Below, in pieces: positions 11,851 to 62,387 of a stretch of DNA of 64,000 nucleotides; the stretch's first letter is position 1, and each line of letters starts with the position of its first letter. The position numbers and the translations under genes are program-made. The notes under the pieces are model-generated. The model did no database searches. It saw only the letters and a list, made by a program, of their open reading frames with translations, and was not told where the DNA came from. Source of the DNA: Chloranthus sessilifolius (taxonomy: Eukaryota > Streptophyta > Magnoliopsida > Chloranthales > Chloranthaceae); NCBI GenBank assembly GCA_021018995.1, contig CM037596.1, forward strand, positions 11,855,501 to 11,919,500, in the 5' to 3' direction.

Positions 11851-11888
<38 letters not shown>

Positions 11889-12033: not shown

Positions 12034-12034
12034 T

Positions 12035-19846: not shown

Positions 19847-20249
19847 ATTGATCGATCAATAGAGGAATTGATCGATCAATTTGGTGATTGATCGATCAAC
19901 ACAGAGTGGTGATCGATCAATGATGGTGTGTTCTAGTACTTAGTTTTGGGTGATTGATCGATCAATGATGGTATTGATCGATCAATTTTCATGGTGTTGA
20001 TCAATCACCTAGGTTGGTTGATCGATCAAAGTAGACTATTGATCGATCAACAAGTGTAGTGATCAATCAATTAAGGTGTCATTGATCGATCAACAGTAGA
20101 TGATTGATCGATCTACGCATCGGGCTAGGGCATTAAGATGCTTCATTGATCGATCAATGAGTTCATTGATCGATCAATACTGGGGATTTAAGTTAAAATT
20201 GGGATTTCGAACGGCCATTTGCACCAAGCGTAAGAGTGATCGATCAAGG
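19847..20249. repeat. Third TTGATCGATCAA array, between pol and the extra ORF of element A
   Basis: About fifteen copies or near-copies of the same palindrome found in both LTRs of element A, here in the internal region just upstream of the extra ORF. The spacers differ from those of the LTR arrays, so this is not simply an LTR fragment. Confidence 0.93.
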
Positions 20250-20406: not shown

Positions 20407-21809
20407 ATGGGGCCGCGAATGAAGAACGCTTCGGGTAATGTACCCACTTCCCGGGCTCGTACACCCATACCGCCCACTGATTCGGTTCCCCAGACCTCTG
20501 TGCCACCTGTGGCATCTGTTTCGGACGTGGTTCCACCCGTCCAAATCTTCGTCCCGACCCAAATCGAACGTGAAGTCCCCAATCCATGGTGGACTTCCAA
20601 TACCTTTCTTCCTGAGTATGTGTTCACCTCCTCTCTTTACGAGGATCAGCCCGAAATGGTTTGGGCCAAAGGTTAGATCCAACGGCTCGGGTTGAAGCCT
20701 TTGTTAGAGCCATTCCACGATCATTACTGTCCCCAGATCGTGAGGCTCTTCTTCCAGAACCTTCGTTGGGGTGATAGTCAAGACCGACTCGTCACTTCCA
20801 TTGACGGGTTCGAGTATAAATTCAACCAATTCCATGTAGCGGCGCCTGCCCTTCAGTGCACGTCCGTTTACATTGAGACATGTGGTTTGGATGCCCCCTA
20901 TGTTAAAGATGTCCCTTTTACTGATATGGTCACCAAAATGACCCAGGTCAGCATGGGCAAGGGCAATCCGTCACACGGGCCCAATTACCCGACAAATTGT
21001 GGATGCTTGATACCTATATCAAGTGTGCACTTAACCCATTCTTGCACAAGTCCTCACAGACCGGTGTTGTGCAACAAGCCCTGTTTTCAGCCTTTGAGAA
21101 CCATTGGTTCTTTATGGCTGACTTGGTCATTGATGGCATTGTCAATGCCAAGGACCTCATGTCTGAGAAGGTCAAGTCGGGGGTCAAGAAACAGATCCCC
21201 TACGCGCGCCTCATTACCAAAATGGTGGAGCAATACGTTGCTCTCCGCGAGGCGTACAACTTGGCTCCCAATGAGCCACGCTTGGTCAACAACACCAAGG
21301 TCTTCTACCTAAGGGATTGGACCAAGAGCTACAACCTCCTAGTTAGACGGCTCCCAGAGGGTGAGGAGGACGCAGATGAGCCCGTTGAGCCTGCTGTTGC
21401 AGAGGGTGTAGCGCCCGCTGAGCCTGTGCTTGGAGAGGGGGAGGCACCATGCGATCCATCACCTCAGCCTGAGGTGTCTACCCGTCCTGCCCCCACCACA
21501 CCCTGTAGACCACCCCGTCACACCACGTCACATCCCCCTCCTCCCTCCGTCGATGTTGCCGCCGTGCTTTGTGATCTCGTGAAGGGTAACTGTCGCATAC
21601 ATGAGCGTTTGGATGGCATGGAGGTGTTCCAGCGACAGATTCATCGTTGGTTGGATTATCATGAGGGCATGCACGAGCTCGTCATGCAGCATTTATACGC
21701 CACTACATCCACGCCGATGATTGCCCACGCCAGCCAGCACGTGGTGGATCCTCGCGACTACCGTATGCCGCCACCCCGCCCCAGCAGACCTACGCCTGAT
21801 GAGGCCTGA
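20407..21809 (+). pseudogene. Extra ORF of element A: putative plant transposon protein domain (Transposase_32-like)
   Basis: Sense-strand ORF between pol and the 3' LTR. From the ATG at 20407 come a Pro/Thr/Val-rich head, NPWWTSNTFLPEYVF, then after a TAG (20675) LEPFHDHYCPQIVRLFFQNL and DGFEYKFNQFHV. After a frameshift near 20995, LWMLDTYIKCALNPFLHKSS runs to VKKQIPYARLITKMVEQ, then an acidic Pro-rich linker and a C-terminal stretch with ICHE-like helices (NCRIHERLDGMEV, RQIHRWLDYH). The order matches, from memory, the domain of unknown function named putative plant transposon protein, often found as an added ORF in gypsy elements. It is not gag, pol or env. About 470 codons; G+C is higher than in the surroundings. 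Function unknown. Confidence 0.7.
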
Positions 21810-22029: not shown

Positions 22030-24526
22030 TGTAACGACCCTGAAATTCTGAACAAGAATCTGACTGTTTCGATATGCGTGCTCGATACGAAAATCGAGAC
22101 AAATTTTAAAAATTAATAATGAATATTATTTGAAATAATGTTACCCTGCAATTAGACGAAGTCATGTATGAAATCTCTCGTGAGTCCGAGTCATGTAGGA
22201 CGTCGATGCAGCATGTTACACCGTAGCGATCGTGTTCACGCTTTACATCAGAGACAAACTTAGGGTCTAAATTGAAATATCAGAGATATTTCAGTTTAGG
22301 TAGCTTATAAAGGAAGGAAGAGACCTAGAGAGATCTCCTTCTTCTTCCTCTTGTTCTTGAGCTAGAATCCTGTAGCTAGGTTGGGTCCCGAGTGTATTCT
22401 TCGAGGAAATAAGGTTAGGAATACCGAGATCATGCGTCAGTCTGAGTTAGGGTAGGGTGAGTTCAATAAAATGAGCTCAAGTATAATTTATGTGTGTGTG
22501 AAACCTCTGCGTGCGAAATCGGAATCAATAAATTACTTGTTAGAGTCACACCAGTGAAACAGCCTGAGTTCTGAATCTGAAACCCTATTCCGGATCGTTT
22601 TGCCGAAACCCCGACAGGACCCAAATCAAGGTATGTATGTGCATCTAAATTGGGCAAGTTTAAAGCCCTTATTTTGTGTTTAATGCATGTGAAGTAATGG
22701 TTTGAAACCATTAATGAAAAAAAGGTTGGAATTAGGTCAAAGAAATGACCTCCATTAATGATATAGGAGCTGTCATTATTGATCGATCAATGCTAGATTG
22801 ATCGATCAATGAAGGGTATTGATCGATCAATAAGGGTGTTGATCGATCAATTCGTATAAGCTTTAAAGAAGGAACAGTGGACTTGAATTTCTGAAAGTTC
22901 AGAGTTCGAAGGGTGTTGATCAATCAATCAGTGAACAGATCGATCAATTCTGAGTATTGATCGATCACAGAGAGAGTGATCGATCAATGGCTAGTATTGA
23001 TCGATCAAAGATGGTATTGATAGATCACTAGTGTGTGTTGATCGATCAATAAGGAGATTGATCGATCAATCTGTATAAGTGACAAAAGGGAACAGAAAGA
23101 GGGAAATTTAAAAATTTAAGGTATTGATCGATCAATGAGACGGATTGATCGATCAACTAAGCTGGTGATTGATCAATTATACTCTGTCAAAGTGTGAGGA
23201 GAAGGGAGCCATTGATCGATCAATTTAGGTATTGATCGATCAATGAAGGGTGTTGATCGATCAATAAAGGCTAGTGATCGATCAACTACCTTTGTTGCTT
23301 GTGAAGTAATTAGAGGGTATTGATCGATCAATGGGGCCATTGATCGATCAATAAGGAGGATTGATCGATCAATCAAGGGGGTGATCGATCAATCACCCCT
23401 GTTTTTGACCTGTTTTGTTTCTATAAATTTAATGCTACTGGACACCGCGCCAGTTGATATTCTGACATACCTGACACGTAGTATACTATATTTATGGTCT
23501 AGGATCAGACCATGACGCTTTAAAAAGCTTTAGATTTGCTTAGAAAGAGGTCTAACCTGAGGTAGGGGAAAACCAACCTAAACTATTTTTTACTATGATT
23601 TCATGATTCTTTCATATCTGCATCCTGATTTCTATTTTGACAAGCATGTTAGCATATCATAAATTCTTGTTATCTCGTATTCCTGTTTTCTGATTTTGTA
23701 TTCTAAAAGCTGCTCCTGATTTCTGCTATCTGATTTGTGAGGTCTATGTGTGTATGTGATTTTGATGATTTAATCAGATGATCTCCACAAACTCGGTGGT
23801 ATATCCGTGCATGGCACACTTGTGCATCTGCTTTTTTAATCCCTCGGCACAATTGCACTCCATAGATGAGGCATTGTTGCACCCTGAAATTGTTCATGTG
23901 AACGACGATTGGTTGGGGTTTCCTATCGGTAGATTCCTGTTTACTCCATGTTATATATTCACGGGAGTTTCTTAAGTTAGAAAATATATACAATTTAAGT
24001 CACTGATTATGTACTCGCATAGCATCTGTTTCTTGTTTAAAAGCTCAGTATTTGATCGGATTTTGCCCTGTTTGCATGTTCTGATTTGATTTCCTGCTTT
24101 GAGATATCATGTCTTGCATATTCAATACATTTTAGTTGGAATTCTTCTATTGAGCTAGGATGTAGCTCACCCTGTTTTCTACAACAATTTTAGGTTCTGA
24201 GGCTAGAGCTCCCGACACCGAGAGCGACCTTGACTACCAGCCTGATCTAGAGGCTGAGGCTGAGGACGAGGAGACTAACGTCCAGGCGGACGATTTTTAT
24301 CCTTAGTCTGGGTATACGAGTCTGCTATTTTTAAGATTTTGTATAGAACTTTGAATTATTGTGTGCCTGGTGGCCACTTTTTGTAATTACTTCCTGTAGA
24401 TGCTTTTCTTTTTATTGTATTATTATATATTCCATTGGAACCATTAGCAGGAACCATTGTTTTGGGTGATGGATGTCCATTACCAGTGGTTCTTCTTGGT
24501 TCCTTTTTGGGAATGTATATTCTTTT

Positions 24527-24574
<48 letters not shown>

Positions 24575-24751
24575 CTTTTTATTGTTTCTTTCATTTGCAA
24601 AGCATTACGTAATGACTGGATCTACCACTGCTGGACAGTGACTGCTTGGTTTCTGCTATACGAGCAGACACTTCATGATTTGTCCTGGGGATCATCCAGA
24701 GTATGATCCTGATGGCATGGATATCTGGGTGCGGAAAATTGGGCTGTCACA
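22030..24751 (+). repeat. 3' LTR of element A
   Basis: 2722 bp, TGTAACGACCC...GGGCTGTCACA. Complete, unlike the 5' LTR. Contains the palindrome array 22778-23395, GAGCTA..TAGCTC (24152-24168), an acceptor TTTTAG/GT followed by an open acidic mini-exon ending DDFYP-stop (about 24195-24306), a stem-loop GGTGATGG/CCATTACC (24465-24484) and a (TA)n tract (about 24531-24568). Confidence 0.94.
22778..23395. repeat. TTGATCGATCAA array in the 3' LTR of element A
   Basis: Counterpart of 10115-10752 with the same order of units and spacers. Units gained or lost between the two LTRs (for example an extra GTTGATCGATCAATAAAGG-like unit near 23250) show that copy number changes by slippage or conversion. 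Confidence 0.94.

Positions 24752-33616: not shown

Positions 33617-33662
<46 letters not shown>
33216..33662. repeat. Spacer ending in an (AT)n microsatellite
   Basis: Unremarkable sequence ending in a ~40-bp (AT)n tract (about 33619-33660) that served as target for the Mutator-like element. It contains a short direct repeat, TACTGGTAGG/TACCAGTA, near 33480-33520. Confidence 0.6.
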
Positions 33663-33663
<1 letters not shown>

Positions 33664-33982
33664 GGAAATTTGCACTTTCGGCCCTATAAGTTTGAGTATT
33701 TACAAAAACGGCCCTATAGTTTCAATCCTTGCATAACAGGCCAGCTCCAAGCCTAGCCGGTTCCACGTTTCCCTTATATATATATATATATATATATATA
33801 TGCTTCTTTATGCTTAATTTCCCTTTCTAACACTTTTTCTTAGATTGTGAATTTGAGATTCGACTACAGTTGGTATAACTCAGAGAACTACAATAGGCTA
33901 GGTAAGATATCGAGTACATTATCTTTATAAGATATTGATTTTCCATCTTTTTTTTAACATATAGTAGGTAGACCAAGCTAGG

Positions 33983-34341
33983 TAAGATAGCGGCTGATAA
34001 CTTAAGATATCGGCCACGATCTTAGGATATCGTCCGTTATCTTAGGATATCAACCGATATCTTAAGCTAGCGGCTGATGTCTTAGATATCAGCTGCTAAT
34101 TTAGGATAGCGACCGATATCCTAAGATAGCGGCCAATATCTTAAGATAGCAGCCAGATATCAGCTACTAATTTAGGATAGCGGTCGATATCCTAAGATAG
34201 CGGCCGATATCTTAAGATATCGGCCGCTATCCTAAATTAGCGGCCGATATCCTAAATTAGCGGCCGATATCTTAAGATATCGGCCGCTATCTTAAGATTT
34301 CAGTCGATATCTTAAGCTATCGACCGATATCTTAGAATAGC
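33983..34341. repeat. Motif array 1 of the MULE (5' of the transposase)
   Basis: About eighteen units near ATCGGCCGATATCTTAAGAT (20 bp, itself a palindrome), alternating with variants such as TAGCGGCCGATATCCTAAAT. The conserved core is (G/T)CGGCCG(A/C)TA. The array ends about 100 bp before the transposase ATG. Confidence 0.93.
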
Positions 34342-34442
34342 CTTTTAACCAATCAATTTTTATTTTTTAATATTATAGCGCCTAAATCAAGTATGACCCT
34401 TTTAACCAACCAATTTTTATTTTGTAAATATTGTAGGTTGAA

Positions 34443-37087
34443 ATGGATATTCCCCTTCTTTGCTATTTTGATTTCGTCCATGTGAAAGATAATACTTACA
34501 ACGGAGGACATCGGAAGATTGTCACTATCACGGAGAACATATCATTTGATGAGTTTATGGAGAAAATGTACAAGGTCAGTAGGTCACGACCGGAAGAACA
34601 TTCTATTACACTAACGGTTTTATTACGCATAGGGAATGAACTTGTGTTTATTGAATTGTGTGACTTTGATGATCTTACAAACTTATTCAGAACATATCGT
34701 ATTGGTGATGGTGTGATAAATATTTATATCAAAAAATCATTAGTCACAATCGTAGCAGAGATTTTACCGTCTTTAGAAGCATTTCAACCGTTCCAGGAAA
34801 CAAACGAAGATGATGATGGTGTGGGAACAGAATATTTGATTGAAAATCAAGAAATACGGTTTGAAGAGGAGAACATCGCTGCACCGATGATAGAAATATG
34901 AATATAGGATTTTGCCCCTACCGTAGGCCTCTGGAGCAACTCTTCAGACATTTCAATGAGTAAAGGCGATGAAGATCAAGGATATTATCATCAAATGAAT
35001 TCGATGCATGATACATCTCAGTTCAACTTTGATTCGGTAAATAATACATTTACCTCAAATCAGTAGGAAACGTTTTTAGTCGGCCTTAGTCCATATCAAT
35101 AGCCTTTCGAACCAATAGCTTTGGAGCTAATGATAATCAAGCCTTCAACAGAATAGCCTCTAGTATATAAAACATTCCCGTCTCGGCCAACATCAATCCA
35201 AACAACTGCACATCAACCAAACGTACGTCGACGGGCTCAATCCCAATCACGTAATAACCATCCAGTCGATGACGATGATAGTGATCCTGAAAATAATAAA
35301 GCACCGTCGTCTCCCACTTCGAGTGTTGATACTAATAGGGGAATTGATCAACCTCTGGTGGACGAAGACTATCAGCTTAATGACTCGGAAGGAGTGTATA
35401 TGGATTCGGATGATGAGGAACTGTATGAAGGGGACGAATTACCATTGGTCAAATGTTTAGAAATAAGAAATCATTTCAGAAAGCTCTTAAAGAATTTGCA
35501 ATGGCAAATAATTTTCAGATTAAACCAATAAAAAATAGTCCTCTTCGAGTTACGGCGAGGTGTATTAAAGTAGGATGACTTTGGCGAATACATGCAGCGA
35601 AATTAGTAGGTGTGGACACGTTTGCTGTGAAGACTTCCCACCTAAAATATACGTGCGGAATGCCAGCTTTCGAAAGTGGACATCGCCAATGTACGACATC
35701 TTAGATAGCTTTATTCGTGAGAGAAACTATTAAAGGGCTTTGACGAAACTCCTGCTTCAATAATTTTTTATATTGAAAAAAATATGATATAACAATAGGT
35801 TACTGGAAAGCATGGAGAGGAAAAAAAATAGCGTTGAATGACATCCGAGGTAGCTGGAATGAGCAATTTAAGAACCGTCATATGTCGCCGAATTACAGCG
35901 GGTCAATCCAGACGTACAGACTGAATTGTGTGTCGAGCCTGATAATGCATTTTAGAGATTCTTCGTGGCATTCGGACCTTACATTCGAAGCTTTCGTAAG
36001 ACTTTACAAAGAATAATTGCGGTAGATGGAACGCATTTGTGTAGACGATACAAGGGAGTGTTATTAATAGCTACAGGGATAGACGGAAATAAACATTTAT
36101 TTCCTATAGCGTTCGGCGTTGTACCGAAAGAAAATGAAGATCATTGGATATGGTTTCTTGATCTATTAGGGAGACGTGCAATCGGTGACTTTGAAGAGCA
36201 ATTTGTATTAATATCAGACTGACAGAAAGGTTTGATGGAAGCTATAGAAAAAGTTTTTCCTAACGCCTTTCACAGCTATTGTATGCGACACCTAGCTCTA
36301 AATCTGTTTGATACATATAAAGATACAATCTCTAAATATCTTTAAAATAATGCAAAAAATAGAAGACGACGCCCCCCCGGAATGTACAACATGGATTAAA
36401 GAAATTGGTGATCATTTTTGTGCTCGCGCTTATTTTCAAGGGAGGCGTTATGATATGTTGACAACTAATATAGCTGAAAGCATAAATAGTGTGTTGAAAA
36501 TAGCCAGGGAGGAACCGATCGTGAGCATGTTAGAAACTTTTCTCACAAAGGTAGCAGAATTTTATCTTTGTTGTCAAGAGGAAGGAAATAAAATGACACA
36601 CATGTTAACACCGATAGCCAAAAAACAGATAACACAAAATTCAGGATGGGCCCGTCGAAAAAACGTTATACTATATGGTCACGATATATTTCAAGTTAGA
36701 CATGGTGATTACACTCACAGTGTCGATCTAGATAAGCGAGCATGTACATGTAGACGTTAGGCTATTCTTGGATTACCATGTTCACATGCGATCGCGATAT
36801 TATCGCGCCGAAACAGAGAAAGAGAGATCCCTCAAATTTGTGAGCACTGGTTTACCAGTAACTTATTTAGGGAAACTTATAAATAATACTTTGTCCCGAC
36901 CGTTGACAAGCGCCAATGGACTTCACAAAAAAACGACATTCAAGTTTTGCCTCCGCACAAAATACGTCAAGTCAGCCGTCCGAAGAAAAGGAAAATAAGA
37001 TCTAAAGGCAAAGTTCGACCACTACGATGTAAAAATGAAAACAAATACGATCATAACCATCGCACGTGCAAATTTGTTAGAATTTGA
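34443..37087 (+). pseudogene. MuDR-type transposase of the KI-MULE (broken)
   Basis: Starts at ATG 34443 with a PB1-like N-terminal domain (DIPLLCYFDFVHVKDN; 152 open codons), an acidic linker, then the plant MuDR zinc-type domain in another frame (FQKALKEFAMANNFQIKP, 35470-35530). The catalytic MULE domain follows: IAVDGTHLCRRYKGVLLIA, HLFPIAFGVVPKENEDHW, ISD-stop-QKGL (TGA at 36220), CMRHLALNL, then a SWIM zinc finger CTCRR...LGLPCSHAI (36745-36790) and a basic C-tail RPKKRKIRSKGK ending near 37087. Several stops and at least three frameshifts make it non-functional. Catalytic Asp residues are still visible at VDGT and ISD. Confidence 0.92.
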
Positions 37088-37194
37088 AATTAACTTAGAT
37101 TACATATAAGAGTACCGTAAGTCTTTATTCATCATTCATCATCCAAATAGATTTTGAGATCATGACCTTACTATAGACTAATTTTTAGCAAAAA

Positions 37195-37396
37195 ATTAGC
37201 GGCCGCTAACCTAAATTAGCGGTCGATGACCTAAATCAGCGGCCGATGACTTATGATATCGGTTGATATCTTAAGTTAGCGGCCGATGACTTATGTCAGC
37301 GGCCGATAATTTATTTCATCGATCGCTAACTTATATTATCGGCCGCTAGCTTAATATATCTGCCAATATCATAAGTTAGCAATCGATATCTTAAGT
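37195..37396. repeat. Motif array 2 of the MULE
   Basis: About ten units of the form TTAGCGGCCGATGACTTATG and relatives, directly after the transposase. Same core as array 1, different spacer half (CTTAT rather than CTTAAG). Confidence 0.92.
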
Positions 37397-37548
37397 AATG
37401 TAGATCATGAGAAAAGTATTCTCCCCCATTATCATATCAAAGTGTCCTTAACCTTAGCATTGAATTGAGTTTCAATCCACTTGTGAGAAAGGCAAGAAAT
37501 CGCAACAACTTCTCCTTTGATCTTCAAAAAGTAGTATAACGAGCACCA

Positions 37549-37656
37549 TTAAGTTAGCGGTCGCTGACTTAAGTTTGAGGCCGCTAATTTATGTTATCGA
37601 CCGCTGACTTAAGTCATCGGCCGTTAAATTAAGTTAGCGGCCACTAAGTTAGCGGG
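37549..37656. repeat. Motif array 3 of the MULE
   Basis: Five to six units (AGTTAGCGGTCGCTGACTTA, AGTCATCGGCCGTTAAATTA and similar) between arrays 2 and the 3' end of the ULP gene. Together with array 2 it fills the space between the two convergent genes. Confidence 0.9.
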
Positions 37657-37821
37657 CATTGTGAAATCTGAACATCAAATTAAATTGATAACAACGAAAA
37701 TTATACAAGTTGATATAAAATATTTGAAATTGTATAAAAAATATTTACAAAAATCTATAAAATTTTACAAATATATGAAATATAAAGTTTAATTAAGTTT
37801 AATTCTTCCCAAACGTGCACA

Positions 37822-40800
37822 TTAAATGTCCGATTTCGGCTCTAAATTATTACATTTATTTTTTTCGAAATCAATAGTTCGCCGTTGAGAGAAGTATTCT
37901 ATAAACTTCAAAACATATACACCGCAGTCCCAACCATTTTTTTGGAGCGGGAGATCGACACTGTTGAACACTGATACCTTTCACTATTGATCGAAAGCTA
38001 ACTTTAAATCGACAGTGTAAAGAAGATGTGGAAGGTGATGCAATAGGCATCCTTTATGCGCTTCGAACCTCCTTGATCACTCTCGGTCTGTTGGATCTAT
38101 TAACTTAATTTCGTGATCAACTAATAAAATTATAGCCAACGCCCAGTAGCTATATTTTTGGCTATGCATCGGAAGATAAATCTGCACAGAAGCGGAACCG
38201 AAATTTTAAATAATTAATTTTACTTAAAAGTCGTTAATGTTGAACAAATCGAAGTGTAGTATTAAAAAACGTACCGTTTCACAGTCGACCGCGTGAATTT
38301 CGCGTTTATTATTTGTAAGTAGTGGTTCAAGCGGCTTTGAATTGTAACGAACCTTCCATTCGTCACAGTAGGCCTGCCACTTATCGAAGTCGTTAATTAA
38401 GTACTGCTAGACCTTCATTATCGATAAATTTTTCATATTTTTTCTCGTCTACTATAAACAAGGTCTGAAACAGAATAATGTAGTAAGTAAATAAATTAAA
38501 AGAAGTGAATCGAGAGTCATGAATGAAAAGATAAATAAATGAAACAAACGAAACAATAAATAGTTGAAACCTTACCAGGGCGGACGTAGAAGTGAACCAG
38601 CTTTTTTCGGTATTTACCCTAAACATTGAATCGTTGGTAACTTCAAGGACTCTCGAGTATGCGTCGATGGCTTCATTGTCAAGCCACGAGTGTCCTTTGA
38701 AAACCTTTAAAAGAGCAACTGTGATGTCAACACCCATGAAAGTATTGACGATCACATTGTCCTCCTCCTCTGGCTGGTTCCAAATACTGAGCATATATTT
38801 ATACTTCATTAATTTTGGCTCATCCTCCTCCTCCACAACCAATTTTGATTTTTTTATAACGGCTTTACTGGTCAGAGTCTTTCTCTTCTTCCTAGCACGC
38901 AAGTCATATCCCTCGGCTTTACTTTTTCCAGTTGATAGTTTCACTAAAATTTATTTTAGTGATGCCGGCTGTGACTCACGAGAAGGTTGGGTAAGAGGAG
39001 CACCCTCATCACCGACTTCCACCAAGGGTTGATTAGTAGGAGGTTGAGGAGCTTCAGAAGTTTTGGGGGCAGTGATTTGATGAGTAGGTTGAGAAGCAGT
39101 GGGTTTAGGGTCAGTAGGTTTAGGGAAAAAAGTTTTGTGGGCAGTTGATTGATGTGTAGGTTGAGGAGCTGTGGGTTTTGGGCCAGTGGGTTTAGGGGCG
39201 AAAGTTCGGGGGGCAGTGGATTAACGGCTTGGTTGAGGAGCCATGGGTTTAGGTTCAAAAGTTTTGGTTACTGTTGGTTGAGTGGCAGTGGTTTGAGGGG
39301 CAGAAGTTTCAGGAGCAAAAGATTGAGAAGTTGTAGGATGAGTGACAGTGGGAACGAAGGTTTCAAATAGAACAGAGGAAAGAATATTATCCTGCATAAT
39401 TACAAAATACATTAAAAACTGTCAATATTTTACAAAAAATAAAATTATTTGAGATCAAATTAGCAACCGCATAATCGGCCACTAACTTATATTAACGGTC
39501 GATACTGTAATGCAACAGCATAATCGGCCACTAACTTATATTAGCGGTCGATAATTTACATTATCGACCGATAATATAACTTTTCGGCCTCTAATATAAG
39601 TTAGCGGTCGATAATTTACATTATCAGATGATAATGTAAATTATCGGCCACTAACTTAGTTTAGCGGCCGATAATGTAAATTATCGACCGCTAACTTATA
39701 TTAGCGGCCGACAAGTAACATTATCGACCTATAATTTACAATATCGGTCGACAAGGATATTTGGCATTAATCTTTAAAAAAATATTTTTTTTAAAAATTT
39801 AAAAAGAAATGGTTTAGTACCTTCGTCAAATGAGATGTGACTGCATCAAGGTCCTTTCGTATTGAGGCATTTTATTTAGTTAAATTTAGAACCCAATGTG
39901 TTAGTGACCCTACATTATCTTGTAATGATCCAACTTGCTCTTTGAGGGTCTTCTTGTCTCTCCCTAGTTGTTCAATGGTGAGTGTTTGCCCTTTAAGTAC
40001 TGTAAATGCACGTCGAAAATCTCTTTTCATCTCTTTAACATTCATATGAAGAAATGTGCATTCTTTTCTAAGCTCTGTTACTTCTTTGGTTAGGTGGGGT
40101 TGCCTAACCGACTATTCTCTTATTGGTTGGGGCCTAATCTTCGGTTTGCCCTTTAGTTCCATATGTTGACGTAGAACGACTTCATACTCGTCGTTTTTGT
40201 CGCTGTCATCATCGTCATCCCCATCGCCGTCATCGTCATCTCGGCTTTTCGGCTTTTCGGCTCTTTCTTAAGGGTGTGTCTCGTAACTTGGGATATCGTC
40301 GTATTCATATATATTTTCTTGGAAGTAAGGCTCGTCAGTCTTTTCCTGCTCCCTTTTCATCTCTCTTTGCATCAAAAAGAGTTGAATTGATCTATACTAT
40401 AATTCGTACTTTACAGCTTCAAGCATTAAGATAACTTTAGACTTAAGAAAAAAATTTCGATAGAAATTAGGATTATGGCTAAATTTTGGGCCTTCCCATT
40501 TCATTAGCCTAGAAAATGGATCTTTGAGCTCAGTAAGAGCGTTGGCGACTCCAAGAAAGTGCTCAAACGCCCAAATCTGTAGGGCGATAATGCATCCGTA
40601 GATTTTATAATGTCCCTTTTCTGACTTTTTCGTCATTTCCCTTCTGACGTTTGCTTTTGATATGCTATCTAGTAAATTATTGTAAACTATCAGGCCCCAC
40701 AAAACTTGTTGAATTCTTCAATGTTATCTACTAATGTCAAATATTGTGTGTCCACTTCCTGGTATGTGTCCGAAAGTAAAAAAAGATATAGGAGAAACAA

Positions 40801-41184
40801 TAATGATAGTTTCAAAATTTCATCGTTGGATAAATCAGCACTATTAATTATTTCTTCAATACGAGGTCTTTTAGCCGGCTTCCCCCGAAAAAATTTGTAT
40901 CGAATAGTTTCTTCCTCTAGCACGGCCACCTTCTACTCAGACTCAGGTTCCGTCAACATATTCAGGCCTAAAATGAATGTTATATCAGACTCTTGCAGTA
41001 ATACATTGGTATTCCTAACCTTGAAAACATTATATTTAACCCAAAAGCTTAAAATAGCATCAACCAAGTCTCCAGTGAATCCTAATTTCTCATTGATCCT
41101 AAATAGATGACCGAAAATTGAATCATCTAGTATCTTCTTCCTCTTTTCGTCACAATGCAAGTAAAATTTTAACACTAACTCCAA
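37822..41184 (-). pseudogene. DUF1985-ULP1 (Kaonashi) gene of the MULE (broken)
   Basis: Captured gene typical of KI-MULEs. N-terminal DUF1985-type region: FGHLFRINEKLGFTGDLVDA, ITFILGLNM, then LVDNIEEF, WGLIVYNNLL and ALQIWAFEHF (41184 to about 40400). A charged helical stretch (39850-40040) and a Thr/Pro repeat linker (KPTAPQPT-like, 39000-39390) follow, then a basic RARKKRKTL segment and a C48 (ULP1) protease: SWLDNEAIDAY, YLPMHSQKYSYWALAI, KLIDPTD, LQKNGWDCGVYVLKFIEYF. Introns with good splice sites are 39820-39392, 38575-38465 and 38274-38182. The catalytic Cys, Asp and Gln remain, but the catalytic His is Tyr (YW for HW). An in-frame TAG at 40933-40935, a TGA after TDRE and frameshifts near 40700 and 38395 show decay. 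Confidence 0.88.
39461..39756. repeat. Motif array 4 of the MULE, inside an intron of the DUF1985-ULP gene
   Basis: About fifteen units such as TTAGCGGTCGATAATTTACA and TTATCGGCCACTAACTTATA. It lies wholly within the 429-nt intron 39820-39392, so the array is part of the transcript but not of the protein. Confidence 0.92.
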
Positions 41185-41295
41185 AACATTTCCCGAAGGG
41201 CTTTAAAGAGATAGTCATTTTACAATCACTTAGTGAAAATTGTAATATAAATAAAAACAATTAATTAACAAAATATAAGTGAGGTTGAAAACTTA

Positions 41296-41460
41296 CCGAC
41301 AACTTACATTATCGTCCGATAATGTAAGTTAGCGGCCGACAACTTACATTATCGGACGAGAATGTAAGTTAGTAGCCGATAATGTAAGTTGTCGACCAAT
41401 AATGTAACTTACCGGCCGACAATGTAAGTTAGCGATAAGTTATCGGTAAGTTAGCGGATT
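41296..41460. repeat. Motif array 5 of the MULE (upstream of the DUF1985-ULP gene)
   Basis: About eight units (ATTATCGTCCGATAATGTAA, GTTAGCGGCCGACAACTTAC and similar) upstream of the minus-strand ORF, where a promoter or 5' leader would be. It is followed by a short direct repeat (GGATTAGGTGAGAAATATAA, twice, 41456-41497) and two copies of a 30-bp palindromic unit (41645-41705). Confidence 0.9.
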
Positions 41461-41838
41461 AGGTGAGAAATATAACGGATTAGGTGAGAAATATAACGGA
41501 TGACTGAATGTGTTTAAATGTAAAAAAAAAATTACCTGAAAATTTGCTTCGAGCTTTTTTTGCTTTCTCACATTTAAGCCACCGCCCTCTCGGTTTTACA
41601 GAAAAGTATAAAATTAAAGTAAAAAGTAACAAATGAAAAGTAATAAAGTTACTTTTAAACTTTAAAAGTAATTTAATAAAGTTACTTTTAAACTTTAAAA
41701 GTAATTTAAAAGGTGGTTGCTGACATAGAAATCGGCTAGGCTTGGAACTGACCTGTTATGCAAGGATTGAAACTCTAGGGCCGTTTTTGCAAATACACAA
41801 ACTTATAGGACCGAAAGTATAAATTTCCTTATATATTT

Positions 41839-43069
41839 TATTCCACGTCGCACTAATCCGAAAAAAAAAACCCAAAAATCACATGACATATATCATGCTC
41901 AAACATGATTTTAGGGCTACCTTTTGGGATTTGTGCTACATGGAACAAAAAACTTTGTCGTCTAGTGGCATGGTAATGGTCTCAAGATACAATGTGCGAA
42001 AAATTGAAATGAAAAATGATCATAATCATCACCTTTAATGCGATCCACCATTTTCAGTGTAGACGCATACAACCCACCAAGAATATGGTTAGCGAAAATA
42101 GACGTAGATAACCCTTATCGTACATCACAATTGTTGTGTATCCCATTTTCCATATATCACCTTATCATACATCCCCCTTATCGTGCAATACCTTCTTGTA
42201 CATCACTCTTACTGTAACAGAAGAGAGCCATCGAGGAACCTAAGCTTAGTTTGGCGGTAACGCCATGTGCATAGCACGGTGACTAGTGGCCAGGTGGTGT
42301 GAATAATATGGGTGATTGTATTTCTCAAGGGTAGTGGTGATGAAGGTATTAAATATCGGCCGATACCGATACATATCAATTTTTTGGCGAATCGTTACGT
42401 ATTGGCACCGATACGTATTAATATTCGGTATTAGTATCAGCCGATACGTATTCGGTATCAGCCAATACCTATTTAAAAAAAAAAAAAAATTTAAATAGCC
42501 TGATACATATTGGTATCTACTAATACATATTGGCCAATATTCGATACCGATTATATGTGTGGAAAGTTGGGACGAAATACAATCCCCATTATATGACTCA
42601 AAGTAGTCTAGGGTATTTGAGCGTTTTTAAGTGGGTGCAAAAAAGGATTGCGTGTAGTGAATAAACTCACTCTTGGTTGAACTAATCCCGAGAGACACAA
42701 ATGTTGCGCTCCAATTTTTTATTTTTTTGTCAATAGAAATAGAAAAGGTGCAAAGAGGACACAGAACCTCATGGGTTCAATTTTCGTCCTCCACATTATT
42801 TTTCATCTTTGTCTTTATAAGCTGTGAGTTGGGTTTTTAGTAGTTAATCCTCATCAGTGCTCTGTCACTCTATTTCGGAGATGTCATATATTCATCTTCT
42901 GTTCATGCAATCTTCGTAACCGTTGTTTATTTATAATTATTTTCCTTTAAATGAATTACTAATTAATCAAAAAGAAAAAGACTTATTCCTCCGCATGACA
43001 AAATTCTCATGCATGCATCCACTCTTCATTCAATCTTCATAACCGTTGGAACGTGGAATTGGTTTCTCC
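41839..43069. repeat. Intergenic: half family M1 copy and a GATACCGATA-rich inverted element
   Basis: 41940-42070 resembles one arm of family M1. 42344-42551 is an inverted-repeat element with ends GGTATTAAATATCGGCCGAT and ATTGGCCAATATTCGATACC, filled with GATACGTAT/CCGATAC words. Relatives occur at 26008-26130 and near 49825 and 50720-50890. No gene seen. Confidence 0.6.
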
Positions 43070-51062: not shown

Positions 51063-51067
51063 CAAAC

Positions 51068-54026
51068 TGTAACAACCCAAATTTTTTAATTTTATTTAAC
51101 GGTATTAGATGATGTACCACACAATGCATGGTGCTAACGCTCCACACCGGGACTCACCCACTTTTAAAAATAATCTAATATTTTTATATCAATATTAGAC
51201 TCATTATGAAGTACTTGCCGATACGATTCCAATGATATATAATTCGTCAATTTTCGGCAAAAATATAAAAAGTTACACCCGTTTGAAGAGTGAAACAAGT
51301 TAAAGGGCATAACTGTAATTTCGAGAGAGAATCACCATTTGCTTTGGTGCTTACATAAAGCGCTCGAACGAAACTTCTTCTCAAGCTATTCAAGTCAGGT
51401 ATGACTTCTCCTTGCGTGTAAAAACTACTATTTTATTAAATCTTGTACAGAAAGTCGTAATTAGAGTTAACCTAAAAAGGGAATTAGCTATATATTCACT
51501 TTTTCTCTCAGTTATCTCTCTCTATTCTCTCTTCTCTGCAAAAGCTTCGGCAGTGCCATCTTTCACAACTCCTCGTCTGATCTCCATCGATTTTTCGATC
51601 TTATCAAAAAAACTTCACCATCAAAGTTCTTCATCGCCGCGACCGATTTATTGTAAGAAAGAAATTCTCGCGAAAAGACTCGAGCATATCGTCTCTCGAA
51701 TCCGATCTCCATCAACCCTAATCATCGTAGGATTCGAATCACGCTTCAATAAGTGAGTGTCTCTAAATCCATCTTAAATTATTCAGTTATTTCTTTAAAA
51801 AAATTCTAATTTTTTTCCCAACTCTAATTAAATTCGGGTATTAAAGACATAAAAATTTGGCCTAAAATCGATAGGATCATTTTTTCTAGATTTTCGTAAA
51901 ATTTGATCAAACTCTTCAACAGACATAGACTCAGGGTTTTGGCCATAACGTTTTACTCTAAATTCGGATTGACATGATTTTTAAGGAATTGGAAAGAAGA
52001 GAACGAGCTCTACAACTTTGTGTGAAATAGTAATTTTACGAATTTAATGTTTTTAAGGTCAAAATTTAGCTTCCAGTCGGGTTATATTTTAAATGATCCA
52101 AGGTTGTACGGGTTTGACGTTATTTTCTGAACTCTTGGACTATTTTATGTTCAACTTATCGCTAGACTTATAAATCACTAAAAATAAATAAAATATATTA
52201 AATAGCTTTCATCGAATAACCATCTATAAGTTTAAAGGGTCAAATATTAATGCTTTTCAACACTCATCATTCTATTACCTCTTTTAAGGCTCCTATGACT
52301 CTTGAATAGACATGTGTGCTCCTTTAAAATTTGAAACACGTTCAATTGCTATTACTATCGATCATCAATTTTCATATACACAATTAACCCCAATGAAGTA
52401 TATTTTCAACTCAATCATAAAATAAATGTAGTTAAATATTTCTTATTCTCTGTTTTACTTTTATGTTTCATGTGTTATGCTCTATATTAATTTTATTCAA
52501 AAATATTAAATGTTTAGGATTTATGTTATAGTTCTTTCTTATATATAGATTCACCATCATCATATGATATTCATCATATAAAAAATTATAATAGAGCATA
52601 CGCATATAAGTTAAAAGTAAGATATGATATATGATATAAGCCTTCATCACGGTGGGATTTTTTTTACGGTCACGTAGAACTTGGAATATAGGCATCCATA
52701 TATGGATACAACTCCTTTATGGTAGTATGGGATGCCACACGAAGTATATTCAGATTACTACGAAACTCGTCCCCTAGAAAGCGTGGTTTAGTGAAGCCTA
52801 TTACATTGTGGCTCATTATAACTAAGTTTTAAGTAAAGACGATAAATGAATATGCTAAGACACATGTATGTTAAGAAAGTGGAGACTTAAGCCCATGCCA
52901 ATATGAAATCAGGGCGAAGACCTAAGCTCGAATCGAATAATGATATGATATGTTAAGATACGCTGTGAATGTTAGCTAAACATGAATTAAGTTCTCCACG
53001 TGTCATACCTTATGAGCCACCATAAGGGTTCAACGTCTGCAGCCGAGACGGGTCTTAAAGACATTATAGCTTTATCTCAAACTAAGAAAATATTGTGGTT
53101 AATATGTCGGCAACCTCATCTGGGTGGATGGTGGTTTATGTTATGATATGGCGATTAGGTGATTATCTACACGTAGACTTCGCGTGATAGGCTCGAGCAG
53201 CAATCCTAGTGCAGATCGTTTAAACGAGGTAAATAAGTTATGAAATATATTGTGTAGGCGTATGGAGTAATAATAAGACTTATGATATATCACATATGCT
53301 AAGTTGATGAGAAAAATAGAAGTATCATGTACTTTTTATTTTATACTATACCCCTTTCAGTTTGATTATGATATGCTATAAGTATGGGTAATTTTGCTAT
53401 TTTATTAAAATGTTGGTTTTTATTTTTAAAATATACTGCAATTCAAGCGATTGCACACATGACCATCATGGTAAGTTATGATGGATCGATTGTGCAACCC
53501 GCTGAGTTTACGCGACTAAATAAGCTCACCCCCTCTCAAAATCTAACAGTTTTAGGTGAAGACTCTATTTACCCTATTTATGATTACACGGAAACTGCTG
53601 TTTCGGAGGTAGCTCATGTAGATGATGACGTCGGGTATCACTTGGATGAGAGCGTAGATCCGGCTGACTTTTATAAACCTTGAGCATTATTTAGTTCTAG
53701 ACATTTGATTTTATTTCTTTTGAGAGACATATTTTAGTCTCTAGTACTTTGTGAATTTACGTTTGCGATCATTTTATCCAACGTAAAACTTAGTTTATTT
53801 CCTATCTTAGATGCATGATTAGGAATTGTCTGTTTATTGTCAACTACGATTTTCGCTGCTAATTTATGAGCCATTTATCTTTTAATGCTATCTTAAATGC
53901 TTCGATCCATATGCTAAGTCAATTTATAGATTATGTGTATATCCGCTTAGCGCCTTAACCAGCGTGCAGTGTCATAACACGGAATTTTAGGCCCTTGAGA
54001 TCGAATAAGGATTTTGGGTCATGACA
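51068..54026 (+). repeat. 5' LTR of element C
   Basis: Shares blocks with solo LTR D (GAGCTCTACAACTTTGTGTG, ATGATCCAAGGTTG) but has no palindrome array at the corresponding place. Near its 3' end come AAGCTCACCCC, acceptor TTTTAG/GT and an open acidic mini-exon ending DPADFYKP-stop (about 53556-53683). Confidence 0.94.
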
Positions 54027-54609
54027 GAGATGGTATCAAAGTCCAAGCTTTACTTCATCGAGGATTGTGTGGCTCATGTAAGTACACTATGGTGATGATG
54101 TGACAATCATTTTCATAGACCCTACGCTTTAGATCTTTTGTGGACGGAAGGATTTTAAAAAAGTGTGTTGATCAATGACGTAAGATTTGAAGGTTCAATT
54201 GAGGATTTAAAGAATTATTTGATGAAAACTTATATAAGTTAGGAGCATGTGAGAGAAATGAAGAAGAATCTTTGAAGATTGAAGAGTAATCAGAAGATTT
54301 ATTTTTAGAGTATTGGGGAATAATTAGAAAAGATAAATCCTAACTGATTTGATGGTTTAAATTTTTATTATAAGTTGAGATATTGACTATAAGAATAACT
54401 CATTAGAAGTGAATTCAGATTGAGGAATAAATTATTATCATCAACCTCAGATTTATTTAAATTACTTTATGGTCAACGAGATATAATAATGAGGTGAGCT
54501 TACAACGGAGTGTTAGAAGTAATTGATGTTGAGAAATGATAATATATTTTGAATAAATTATTTAAGAGACTACGAGAATTTGATTTTGAAAAGTTAAGGA
54601 TTATAAAGA
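54027..54609 (+). other. Leader of element C, coding content lost
   Basis: Primer site then AT-rich sequence with no frame I can assign to gag or protease. The deletion joins this leader to the reverse transcriptase just after the catalytic Asp pair. Confidence 0.6.
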
Positions 54610-56980
54610 GTGGAAGAGCATGAGGAACACTTTCGTCTAGCACTTCAAACACTCCGATATCACCAGTTGTACGCCAAACTCAGTAAATGCCAATTTTGTC
54701 TTAAACAAGTAACTTTCCTAGGCCACGTGGTATCGATAGGAGTGATTGTCGATTCTTCTAAGATCAAAGCAGTTACAGAATGGAAAGCACCGACGAGTGT
54801 TACCGAAGTTAGGAGTTTCCTCGGATTGGCGGGCTACTACCGTCGCTTTGTTAAAGGATTTTCACGCATTACTCTACCGCCCACTTGCCTCACACGAAAG
54901 AATGTCAAATTTGTGTGGACCGATAAATGTGAAGCAAGTTTTCTAGAATTGAAGAGGAGGCTTACTACTGCGCCAATCCTCACCCTACCTTCTACTTTAG
55001 GCACTAGTGAATTTGAAATATTCACGGATGCATCTCGCCAGGGACTTGGTTGTGTGCTCAAAAAAAGTAAGAAAATTGTCACTTATGGGTCAAGACAACT
55101 CAAACCTCATGAAAAGAACTATCTAGTTCATGACTTAGAACTAGCCGCAGTTATCTTCACCCTCAAACTATGGTGACATTATTTCTACGGCGAGCTATTC
55201 AAGATTTATACGGATCACAAAAATTTAAGTACCTTTTTCTCACAAAAGGACCTAAATTTGAGACAACGGAGATGGATGGAATACATGAAAGATTATGACC
55301 GCTCCATAAATTACCATCCTGAGAAAGCAAACGTCATCACTGATGCACTTAGTAGGAAATTTTTGGCACTGTTAGTCAGATTAAAAACTTGGAAGCCCTT
55401 TGATGAATATGTCGACAAAGACATTTACCTCCAAGAAATCAAAGATGGTGTATATTTGGCACGAATTGTGATGAGTCCGTTTATTTTGGACAAAATAAGA
55501 TTATACAGCGTACGGACCCAGAGATCCTGAAGATCATCGAAACCATAAGATCGAAATCCAATTTCAGCCTCAGGATTGATGGGACGTTATTCTTCAAGCA
55601 AAAACTGTGCGTACCTAATGACCCCCAAGTGAAAAAAGAGATACTTGATAAATGTCACAAATCAGGATACTCAGTACATCCAGGCAGCACTAAGATGTAT
55701 CAGAACCTAAGAAATTGGTATTGGTGGTAGAATATAAAGCAGAAAATAGTTGAACACATGTCGAAGTGCTTAGTGTGCCAACAAGTCAAGGCAGAACATC
55801 AGAAATTGGTCGGACTTATACAACCCTTACCCATCCTGAAATGAAAGTGGAAAAATATATCTATGGACTTCATTGTAGGTCTACCAAAGACGATGAAGAA
55901 GAACAATATAATCTGGTTGATAGTTGACAAGTTGACCAAGTTAGCTTATTTCTTATCTTTTAAGACTACCACAGATGGGAACAAGCTTGCCGAAACTTAT
56001 CTAAAAGAAATTGTCAAACTACATGGGGTCCCAGTCAGCATTGTCTATGACCGAGACTCAAAATTTACTTCCAAATACTGAACAACCTTCCAAGAAGCAC
56101 TGGACACTCGATTGGATTTTAGTACTGCCTTCCACCCACAGACGGACGGCCAGACGAAAAGAATGAATCAAGTAGTTGAGGATATGTTACGAGCGTATAT
56201 GCTCGACTTTTGAGGGAACTGGGACAATCACCTCCCGTTGATCGAGTTCTCTTATAATAACAACTATCAGGCAAGTATCAAAATGTCCCCTTTCGAAGCT
56301 TTATACGGCAGAAGTTACAGAACGTCGTTGTGTTGGGACGAAGTTGGTGTTAGAAAGATGCTTGGACCTAAACTAGTCTAAACTACGACGGAAAAAGTCA
56401 AACTGATACGCGAACGGCTCAAGGTAGCTCAAGATCGCCAGAGAAAGTACGCCAACCCTCACTATCGTAATTTAGAGTTCTAGGTATCACATTTAGAATT
56501 TTGAATTTTAAATTTTATTACAATTGTGCTCTTGATTGAACACTAAAATCTATTTAACAAGTTGGCGAACAAGCATTCATTCGCATCTCCCCGACTAAAG
56601 GAGTTATGCACTTTAGAAAGCGCGGGAAGCTAAGCCCCAGATATGTAGGGCCTTTCGAAGTTAAAAAGCGTGTGGGTGAGGTTGCGTATAAAGTCGTTGT
56701 ACCACCGCAGTACACGGGAATCCATAATATTTTTCACGTATCAATACTTAGGAGATATATCTATGACTCATCACATATTGTGGAAATCGAACCCATCGAT
56801 ATAAAGGATGATCTCACCACCATAGTGAGACCGATAAGGATTCTTGACCGAAAAGTTCAAGTCTTTAAGAACAAAGCGATGACATTGGTGTTAGTTCAAT
56901 GACAACATCACACGCCAAAGGAGGCAACCTGGGAGAATGAAGATGACATCAAAGAAAACCATCATGAGCTTTTTGAATAA
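54610..56980 (+). pseudogene. Partial pol of element C: RT C-terminus, RNase H, integrase, chromodomain-like tail (broken)
   Basis: Opens at [15 protein letters not shown], just after where the catalytic reverse-transcriptase motif would be, so that active site is missing. Visible parts are [10 protein letters not shown], RNase H ([24 protein letters not shown]), integrase zinc residues (CLVCQQVKAEH), core MDFIVGLPKT and VYDRDSKF. The catalytic Glu position is Lys (DGQTKRMNQ), so the integrase would also be dead. The tail has SPRYVGPFEV, NIFHVSILRRY and EATWE and ends at 56980. Stops at 55174, 56079, 56481 and 56900 fall on family Arg, Trp, Gln and Trp codons. A 77-nt intron lies at 56484-56560. 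Confidence 0.88.
56484..56560 (+). other. Intron in the integrase C-terminal region of element C
   Basis: Begins /gtatca directly after the LEF block and ends before GTTGGCGAACAAG, the position and length of the 76-nt intron in element A. The acceptor has decayed (AACAA where AACAG is expected). Confidence 0.75.
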
Positions 56981-57027
56981 TCGGTACATAATTTTCGGGG
57001 ACGAAATTTTTTTTAGAGGAGGAGAAT

Positions 57028-57163
57028 GTAACGACCCTGATGATTTTTATTAACGTTGAATCTTTGACTTTTGATGAAAAGCTGAGATTATGGAGAAGGA
57101 CCTCGAGTTCATTATCTCATTTACATAATTTTTTAGGATAAAAATATTATAAGGGAGAGAAAA
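57028..57163 (+). other. LTR-start-like stub before the 3' LTR of element C
   Basis: AGAGGAGGAGAA followed by TGTAACGACCCTGATG looks like a polypurine tract plus LTR start of the A type. About 136 bp later comes the true tract and the C-type start TGTAACAACCC. This suggests a chimaeric 3' end. Confidence 0.55.
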
Positions 57164-60143: not shown

Positions 60144-62387
60144 CAAACTTTATGATTATCTTTTCATCCCAACGGTAATTTTATAATAATCGTAAAGACT
60201 TGAAAATCTTCGTCTATTGTGCTTCCTTCCACCACAAGATTGTTAAAGATAATTTGCATCTAGTGTACTTACTCCAAAACAGGTTTGGAATCAAATATCT
60301 TTAAATTAAATAACTCACTTACTAAATATGTATGCACACCGACTTCCTCTACTTTATATTTTCGTTCAAGAGTCTCCCCTACCTCATTATTCGATTCGGG
60401 GCGGGGACCTAAGCCAAGAACTGAATAATGATATGATATGTTAAGATATGCTGTAAAGGCTAGCTAAACATTAATTAAGTTTTACATGTGTTATACCATA
60501 CGAGCCACTGTAAAGGTCCAACGTCTGCAGTCGAGACGGGTCTTAAGGACATTATAGTTTTGTCTCAAACTAAGGGGGCATTGTAGTTACTATGCCCGCA
60601 ACCTCATCTGTCTGGATGGTGGTTTATATTATGATATAAAGGTTAGGCGATTATCTACACGTGGACCTCGCGTGATAGGCTCAAGCAGCGATCATGACAC
60701 AAATCGTTTAAACAAGATAAATAAGATATGAAATATGTTGTGTAGGCGTATGGAGTAATAATAAGACTTACGATATGTCACGTATGCTAAGTTGATGAGA
60801 AAAATAGGAAAAGGGATAAGAAAATAGAAGCATCATATACTTTTTATTTTATATTATACCTCTTTCAGTTTGATTATAATATGCTATGAGTATGGGTAGT
60901 TTTGTTGTTTTATTAAAATACTGATTTTTATTTTTAAAATGTATCACAATTCAAGCGATTGTACACAAGACCACCTGGGTAAGTTATGGTGGATCGATTG
61001 TGCAATCCGCTGAGTTTATGCAACTAAGTAAACTCACCCCCCTCCCAAAATCTAACAGTTTCAGGTGAAGATTATGTTTATCTTGTTTATGATGACACAA
61101 AAGTTGTTGTTTCGAAGGTGGCTCATGTAGATGATGACGTCGGGTACCACTTGGATGAGAGCGTAGATCCGGCAGACTTCTATGAACCTTGAGCATTATT
61201 TAGTTATAGACATTGGATTTTATTTCCTTTGAGAGACATATTTTAATCTTTAGTACTTTATAAGTTTACGTTTGAGATTATTTTACCCTACGTAAAACTT
61301 AGTTTATTTCCTATTTTAGATGTATGATTAGGAATTGTCTATTTATTGTAAACTACGATTTTTGCTGCTAATTTATGAGCTATTTATCTTTTAATGCTAT
61401 CTTAAATACCTTGATCTATATGCTAAGTCAATTTATAAATTATGTATATGTCCACTTATCGTTTTAACCAGCGTGCGGTGTCATAACATGAAATTCTAGG
61501 CCCTCGAGATCGGGTAAGGATTTTGGGTTGTGACACAAACTTTTATGATAATCTTTCCATCTCAACGATAATTTTATAATAATCGCAAAGACTTGAGAAC
61601 CTTCGTCTATTGTGCTTCCTTCCACCACAAGATTGATAAAGATAATTTACATCTAGTGCACTTGCTCCAAAATAGGTTTGGAATCAAACATCTTAAAATT
61701 AAATAACTCACTAAATATGTGTGCACACCGACTTCCTCTACTTTGTATTTTCGTTCAAGAGTCTCCCCTACCTTATTATTCGGTTTGGGGCGGGCACTTA
61801 AGCCCAAAACCGAATAATTATATGATATGTTAAGATACGCTGTGAAGGCCAGCTAAACATTAATTAAGTTCTATACGTGTTATACCTAACGAGCCACCGT
61901 AAGGGTCTAACGTTTGTAGTCGAGATGGGTCTTAAGGACATTATAGTTTTATCTCGAATTAAGGGGACATTGTACTTACTATGCCCGCAACCTCATCTGT
62001 CTTGATGGTAGTTTATATTATGATATGGAGGTTAGGCGATTATCTACACGTGGACCTCGCGTGATAAGTTCGAGCAGCGATCCTGGCACAGATCGTTTAA
62101 ATAAGATAAATAAGATATAAAATATGTTGTGTAGGCGTATGGAGTAATAATAAGACTTACGATATGTCACGTATGCTAAGTTGGTGAAAAAAATAAGAAA
62201 AGAGATAAGAAAATAGAAGCAACATGTACTTTTTATTTTATACTAAACCCCTTTCAGTTTGATTATAATATGCTATGAGTATGAGTAGTTTTGTTGTTTT
62301 ATTAAAATACTGATTTTTATTTTTAAAATATACTACAATTCAAGCGATTGCACACAGGACCACCTGGATAAGTTATGGTGGATCGAT
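59004..62387 (+). repeat. Tandem array, ~1.39-kb unit, from the 3' LTR end of element C plus flank
   Basis: Units 59004-60395 (1392 bp), 60396-61784 (1389 bp) and a partial 61785-62387. Each holds the last ~1140 bp of the C-type LTR, the CAAAC target duplication and ~250 bp of 3' flank (TTTTATAATAATCG, CAAAGACTTGA, CTTCCTTCCACCACAAGATTG). Junctions lie in TCGGGGCGGGGAC, present at both ends of the unit. Because the flank and target duplication are included, amplification came after insertion. The third unit is cut by LTR E. Confidence 0.93.

Follow-up and report, generated by a model that had tools for sequence, protein, structure and literature searches.

The closest described counterparts of the locus reported here are the VANDAL transposons of Arabidopsis, the plant to which the VANC systems in the literature examined belong. 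VANC21 binds the motif YAGTATTAY where it is tandemly repeated in the non-coding parts of VANDAL21, with ensuing loss of methylation, and VANC6 has other motifs than VANC21 (PMC5735166). RNA-directed DNA methylation and VANC proteins have overlapping non-coding targets, an overlap less obvious for VANC21, and degeneration of the terminal inverted repeats (TIRs) has been noted in VANDALs together with VANC-related genes (PMC10398659). According to a 2026 review citing Sasaki 2022, some VANC genes carry an Ulp1 domain (KIU), and the VANDALs bearing them recognise motifs in elements of their own kind, which become hypomethylated (PMC13317346). Here we describe a Mutator-like element (MULE) in a window of 64,000 nucleotides from Chloranthus sessilifolius (contig CM037596.1, positions 11,855,501 to 11,919,500), in which a transposase gene and a gene of DUF1985/plant-mobile-domain (PMD) and Ulp1 type are accompanied by five blocks of a palindrome repeated mostly every 20 bp. 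We consider it moderately probable that this element, a decayed copy from a large MULE family with TIRs, combines the two halves of a sequence-specific anti-silencing system of VANC type.

Like the window element, in which the match to DUF1985 is weak, VANDAL21 and VANDAL6 are MULEs with a DUF1985-bearing gene besides the transposase, and a short motif forms tandem repeats in their introns and upstream regions; the two coding probes tested there lack the motif, and VANC21 and VANC6, too, contain tandem peptides, located in their variable part (PMC5735166). That VANC proteins bear a DUF1985-type region had been put forward, as a point to check, in a preliminary description of this DNA, which a model had made from the letters, and agrees with Hosaka et al. 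2017, who mark DUF1985 and DUF287 (PMC5735166). In contrast to the window palindrome, the motifs of VANDAL21 and VANDAL6 measure 8-9 bases and are non-palindromic (YAGTATTAY; AGTTGTCC/AGTTGTAC; PMC5735166), and VANDAL TIRs are degenerate (PMC10398659), whereas those of the window element are 99 bp long. The KIU-carrying VANDALs share with it the Ulp1 domain in a VANC-type gene (PMC13317346), but the window family differs from them in its 99-bp TIRs and in a CG-bearing palindrome in 20-bp register. With an Ulp1-fused VANC already described, the system is known as a kind, and this TIR-bearing family, whose CG palindromes keep a strict register, represents a variant of it; its TIRs are long, although degenerate TIRs and VANC-related genes go together in VANDALs.

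A ULP gene opposite mudrA is also found in KAONASHI (KI) and in grapevine ULP-bearing MULEs, and grapevine ULP genes sit in TIR-MULEs as well (PMC2528002). The name KI-MULE initially given to the window element suits it only loosely, by its gene arrangement and not by its ends, the Arabidopsis KI-MULEs being described as non-TIR; the available text on the KI and grapevine elements does not mention motif arrays (PMC2528002). The family, which has at least 150 scored matches of the domain in 2.17 Gb, offers an unusually clear target in its CG-bearing palindrome, held strictly to a 20-bp register, as well as copies with an open domain, so that protein and target would both be accessible to tests in a lineage other than that of Arabidopsis.

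Phased palindrome arrays in the element and its family

The element occupies window positions 33663-41829 and contains two convergent genes, the transposase on the plus strand and the DUF1985/PMD-Ulp1 gene on the minus strand. All five motif blocks that had been reported from its non-coding parts were found, mostly in exact 20-bp register: A1 upstream of the transposase (33983..34335, 16 in-register units), A2 and A3 between the convergent gene ends (37193..37394, 10 units, and 37549..37652, 5 units), A4 inside an intron of the DUF1985-Ulp1 gene (39461..39760, 14 units) and A5 upstream of that gene (41296..41436, 7 units). Block limits were drawn by eye, and the in-register units, 52 in total, were listed by hand. 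As read by eye, A1 possibly lies inside an intron of the 5' untranslated region (GTAAG donors at about 33902 and 33982, acceptor at about 34436), and A4 is held by a phase-0 intron on the minus strand (39392..39820; donor GAAG/GTACTA, acceptor TTATGCAG/GATAAT).

The core proposed initially, (G/T)CGGCCG(A/C)TA, is enriched: KCGGCCGMTA with at most one mismatch occurs 73 times on both strands of the window, compared with 4.1 expected from 100 dinucleotide shuffles, and a few of these matches fall outside the element. Dyads of the form AKCGGCCGMT (at most one mismatch) number 32 in the element, against 0.37 on average and never more than 3 in 300 simulations under a first-order Markov model; with up to two mismatches, 36 of the 42 successive steps within blocks measure exactly 20 bp, three measure 40 bp and the others 19, 29 and 51 bp. 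The central dinucleotide varies (AC 148, GC 117, GA 107, AT 68, CC 13, AA 12, others 3, with strands merged, in the 30 related loci introduced below), and the conserved site is therefore better written as TTAKCG-NN-CGMTAA. A reading of the core variants as CpG decay (44 of 53 departures being C>T or G>A) was dropped, many of the centre variants being alternatives of the motif.

The host genome (2.17 Gb, 32 contigs) was searched with one exon of the DUF1985 region, and 150 matches were scored of 3,961 candidates; the best 30 of the 150 loci (L069-L098, 3.3 kb each, L069 being the window copy) were chosen regardless of motif. Core sites are present in all 30, with 3-16 per locus versus at most 0.45 expected, as anticipated if every copy carries the motif, and phased sites flank the domain on both sides in 26 of them. 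The 388 sites in these loci that agree with the motif at 11 or more of the 12 fixed positions give 326 consecutive spacings of at most 74 bp, among which 268 are 20 bp, 44 are 40 bp, 2 are 60 bp and 12 are other (314 of 326 at 20, 40 or 60 bp). This result speaks for the window element's own family and not for DUF1985 genes generally.

Units of the same block share their linkers, while those from different blocks share mainly the core (identity between units within and between blocks, respectively: core 0.77 and 0.74, linker 0.75 and 0.61). The greater likeness of linkers within blocks is a sign of tandem expansion, and would fit arrays that are neutral minisatellites or hairpin-forming sources of small interfering RNA. 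We judge this very unlikely, as the core and its 20-bp register are kept across blocks and copies where linkers diverge, the spacings in the 30 loci are almost all multiples of 20 bp, and exons are free of phased sites. On this last point the initial remark that the motif avoids coding sequence was confirmed, none of 178 phased sites in the window element and five gene-bearing relatives lying in tblastn exons (59 sites in the window element, a count that includes half-shifted matches at 10 bp, and 30, 32, 32, 14 and 11 in the relatives).

These five relatives (L055, L057, L058, L060 and L066) are those with both genes among fifteen further stretches of contig 1, all from its first 3 Mb, that were selected for clustered motif words. 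Each of L055, L057 and L058 repeats all four block positions, and L060 and L066 repeat three each, the fetched L060 stretch starting inside the transposase gene. L056, a derivative of 1.6 kb that runs from TIR to TIR, contains 16 core sites without any gene match, and only four of its spacings are 19-22 bp; L062 has motif clusters without TIR matches. The gene-less derivative, the placement of A1 and A5 a few hundred bases inside the element ends, and a loose resemblance, found post hoc, of the TIR words CGGCC(C)TATA to half the motif would suit arrays that serve as transposase binding sites required in cis for transposition, the DUF1985-Ulp1 gene being an unrelated passenger. Against this stand the blocks in the middle of the element, between the 3' ends and in the intron of the other gene, both in the window copy and in relatives, and we hold such a role to be unlikely. 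For an anti-silencing system, the recurring block positions and the core sites of L056 are counted as support.

Exact pairs of TTAKCGNNCGMTAA with a gap of 0-30 (31 spacings allowed) number 4,890 per strand genome-wide versus 0 for the reversed pattern. These totals cover the genome, and the 50 places listed, all on contig 1, show a spacing of 20 bp in 29, 21 in 6, 40 in 14 and 41 in 1. The six 21-bp pairs all have a TTTGAAA/TTTCAAA linker and probably represent another repeat. A search of viral_contigs gave no relative of one transposase piece, and the 45 stretches there with one TTAGCGGCCGATAA match each were taken as chance, 4 of the 45 having one phased pair under a looser rule.

The DUF1985/PMD-Ulp1 gene and the limits of the element

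The minus-strand gene encodes, in this order, a DUF1985/PMD region with stops and frameshifts (40397..41202; PF09331 E 0.0015-0.0042, PF10536 E 8e-4), an acidic, coiled-coil-like region recognised from the translation only (39821..40356), a Pro/Thr-rich linker with tandem peptide repeats (38951..39391; DNA periods of 72 and 15) and a broken Ulp1-type protease region with introns (37822..38950; Peptidase_C48, PF02902, E 1.3e-11). The C-terminal match bears out the fusion to a ULP1 protease that had been proposed. The accompanying naming of the N-terminal part as DUF1985 held to the extent that it matches PF09331, albeit weakly and slightly below the score of PMD (PF10536). Both matches are below the cut-offs in the window copy and stronger in relatives. 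Since 18 of the 20 aligned sequences have a DUF1985 match and 18 a PMD match at E <= 0.01 (the best for DUF1985 being 3.4e-9), the region is labelled DUF1985/PMD-type. In L058, the N-terminal region of which is open, plant mobile domain proteins (PF10536) are the best Pfam match (2.9e-11, 43.6 bits, cut-off 34.9).

The open copies of the DUF1985/PMD domain are under purifying selection, with a dN/dS of 0.30-0.68 (median 0.39) over 21 pairs of 7 copies picked because they are open in this region. As regards the protease, we take the catalytic residues to be His, Asp, Gln and Cys, an assignment based on the motifs of the family. The window copy keeps Asp, Gln and Cys, and its presumed catalytic His (in the 38143-38181 stretch) reads Tyr. 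The His is present in all five gene-bearing relatives, as are Gln and Cys, the Trp after the His being missing in L055, L060 and L066; L058 has all four presumed residues. The read-through DUF1985-Ulp1 protein, compared with 5.8 billion proteins, gave nothing at E <= 0.001 among 8,000 scored candidates, and a structure search gave no accepted match of the protein among solved structures, Utp30 matches at E 0.055-0.066 having been rejected. A single-sequence AlphaFold model of the L058 domain was discarded (pLDDT 38.8).

Host PMD genes are not known to have a link to Ulp1 or to arrays. PMD, the better Pfam match, is what we take to be the domain of host silencing genes, and this would favour a protein that binds the arrays and silences, or one that brakes the copy number of its own family. 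The silencing genes in question are described in PMC5418596. Such an opposite effect is hardly to be expected in view of VANC, a protein with DUF1985 and tandem peptides that follows the same logic of arrays and removes silencing (PMC5735166).

The limits of the element are borne out by its TIRs and target-site duplication (TSD). The left TIR (33663..33762, plus strand) and right TIR (41730..41829, minus strand) were delimited by inverted-repeat comparison and blastn, the inverted repeat proper (33664-33762 / 41730-41828) being 99 bp long and 91% complementary. The 9-bp duplication TATATATTT expected of a MULE flanks both ends (33654..33662 and, matching the left copy, 41830..41838); the left flank is an AT microsatellite, and the duplication of the window copy alone would be weak evidence. 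Among relatives, L066 has a perfect 9-bp TSD (TTAAAGCTA), that of L058 is perfect once the left boundary is shifted by one base, L055 matches at 8 of 9 bases, and L057 sits in an AT repeat where the TSD is not clear. The transposase gene (34442..37087, plus strand) is of mudrA type, as expected for a MULE, and its read-through translation matches the Pfam families MULE (1.5e-19), DBD_Tnp_Mut (4.2e-9) and SWIM (4.3e-7), with a weak PB1-like N-terminus. Stops and frameshifts in this gene and in the DUF1985-Ulp1 gene mark the window copy as decayed.

A proposed self-directed anti-silencing system and the evidence weighed

The arrays would be clustered binding sites, in the form of a palindrome of 14 bp whose centre is free to vary (TTAKCG-NN-CGMTAA), placed every 20 bp, and the binder most likely the element's own DUF1985/PMD-Ulp1 protein. 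Since 20 bp corresponds to about two helical turns, bound dimers would align on one face of the DNA. The 2022 EMBO J abstract by Sasaki is said to name motif sequence, density and helical periodicity as what sets specificity, which would fit the 20-bp register; a literature search for helical periodicity with VANC found no such paper. Bound at the two promoters, in the intron and between the 3' ends, the protein would clear the element of silencing marks, and non-autonomous derivatives with matching sites would be freed from silencing too. Chromatin proteins at the arrays may be deSUMOylated by the Ulp1 domain. It is from the VANC precedent that we infer binding by dimers, demethylation or release from silencing, as well as the possible removal of SUMO by the protease. 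The observations of the preliminary description are confirmed, and its interpretation, strengthened by the relatives, is plausible and supported in part.

The anatomy, the motif and its phasing, the association of the motif with the gene family and the purifying selection on open domains are observed; binding and an effect on methylation are predicted. Several findings weigh against this account. The 30 loci were the nearest relatives of the query and therefore probe its close kin, not distant families. In L058 PMD outscores DUF1985, the match to which (1e-7, 32.4 bits) is under the Pfam cut-off of 35.1. DUF287, with which VANC21 and VANC6 are marked (PMC5735166), gave no match in Pfam scans of the window proteins and relatives, where the window copy is broken and a divergent domain could escape. 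L066 is without a block upstream of the transposase. In 9 of the 15 motif-rich stretches no gene or TIR match of the element family was found, some of these containing lone motif words in an unrelated GATAC-type repeat, and in L054 four TTATCGGCYGATAA palindromes stand at 21 bp with TTTCAAA linkers (4633-4705) outside any recognised MULE; pairs resembling them turn up elsewhere on contig 1. Motif words and a 21-bp array thus do occur apart from recognisable copies, as would be the case for arrays scattered independently of the element, but the motif also travels with the element, in 30 of 30 loci selected by protein.

Three further loci of 8 kb each (L099, L100 and L101), with DUF1985 matches above the cut-off, belong with these adverse findings, in that none has a phased site of the TTAKCG-NN-CGMTAA motif and that L099 and L101, which combine DUF1985 with Ulp1, have no arrays by TRF and 8-mer counts. 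The lack of arrays in intact relatives, which the preliminary description had named as a refutation, was thus partly seen elsewhere, in other DUF1985-Ulp1 loci. DUF1985-Ulp1 genes are thus not always accompanied by arrays, or some use dispersed, unseen sites. With regard to whether related families have different motifs, only L100 offers a candidate: units of GACGCTTC/GAAGCGTC in inverted orientation, spaced at about 22 bp, at 7337-7459, with some others nearby, and also at 2989-3093, which possibly represent a different motif for a different DUF1985 family and serve as a lead only. Lastly, long terminal repeat (LTR) retrotransposons without a DUF1985 match bear analogous phased palindromes, and such palindromes are therefore not specific to the DUF1985 type of protein.

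Phased palindromes in LTR retrotransposons and neighbouring repeats

The same window contains a Ty3/gypsy-type LTR retrotransposon, chromovirus-like as judged from its translation, with LTRs that start at 9355 and 22030 and are 91-93% identical. The palindrome TTGATCGATCAA occurs in both LTRs and in the stretch before an extra open reading frame (ORF), namely in 9355-12034, 19847-20247 and 22030-24751, with 24, 15 and 23 sites, respectively, arranged in runs with a spacing of 19-23 bp that are separated by larger gaps. Palindrome identity is 0.93-0.94, and that of the linkers 0.36-0.43 versus 0.34 for random 8-mers. Genome-wide, pairs with a gap of 6-8 after TTGATCGATCAAT number 18,711 and 18,318 on the two strands and 0 in the reversed control; this pattern presets a spacing of 19-21 bp and hence is not itself a demonstration of phasing. 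The extra ORF, located between pol and the 3' LTR (20407-21809), is broken and matches neither a Pfam family nor the DUF1985 profile. Nested in pol is a solo LTR (14881-17497) with a 5-bp duplication GTAGT and with TTCGATTAATCGAA in runs at 19-21 bp; as one L100 stretch also holds TTCGATTAATCGAA runs, this palindrome has been seen at two places.

Phasing at about 20 bp in unrelated LTR retrotransposons of the same genome, together with the blocks at both promoters of the MULE, would agree with arrays to which a host protein binds and which act as enhancers, insulators or nucleosome-phasing elements. The three elements, however, have three different palindromes (TTAKCGNNCGMTAA, TTGATCGATCAA and TTCGATTAATCGAA), which suggests element-specific readers, and two of the MULE blocks lie between 3' ends, making a host protein an improbable binder. 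A broader proposal, which we put forward tentatively and with some doubt, is that phased self-recognition arrays serve plant transposons in general against silencing and arose independently in different classes, the extra ORF of the LTR retrotransposon being a VANC analogue unrelated to DUF1985. If true, it would provide a function for the additional ORFs of retrotransposons, which published work, in the text available, leaves open (PMC11728184, PMC12844716), and if the LTR-retrotransposon arrays act alike, self-directed anti-silencing would be no peculiarity of MULEs. A literature search on LTR palindromes gave no plant transposon paper among the matches listed, and one on phased or clustered palindromes with chromovirus or LTR turned up only unrelated papers.

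Outside the element, a GATAC-rich repeat at window 42340-42560 contains TATCGGCCGATA and is unrelated to it. The genome-wide count of the single motif word (24,848 versus 2,840 in the control) was not taken as proof, because the word is also found in the GATAC-type repeat, and repeats of this kind explain some single-word matches on contig 1. Farther along the window, the region 51064-62390 consists of large repeats, with pieces of about 0.6-3 kb that are 84-92% identical, probably nested retrotransposons.

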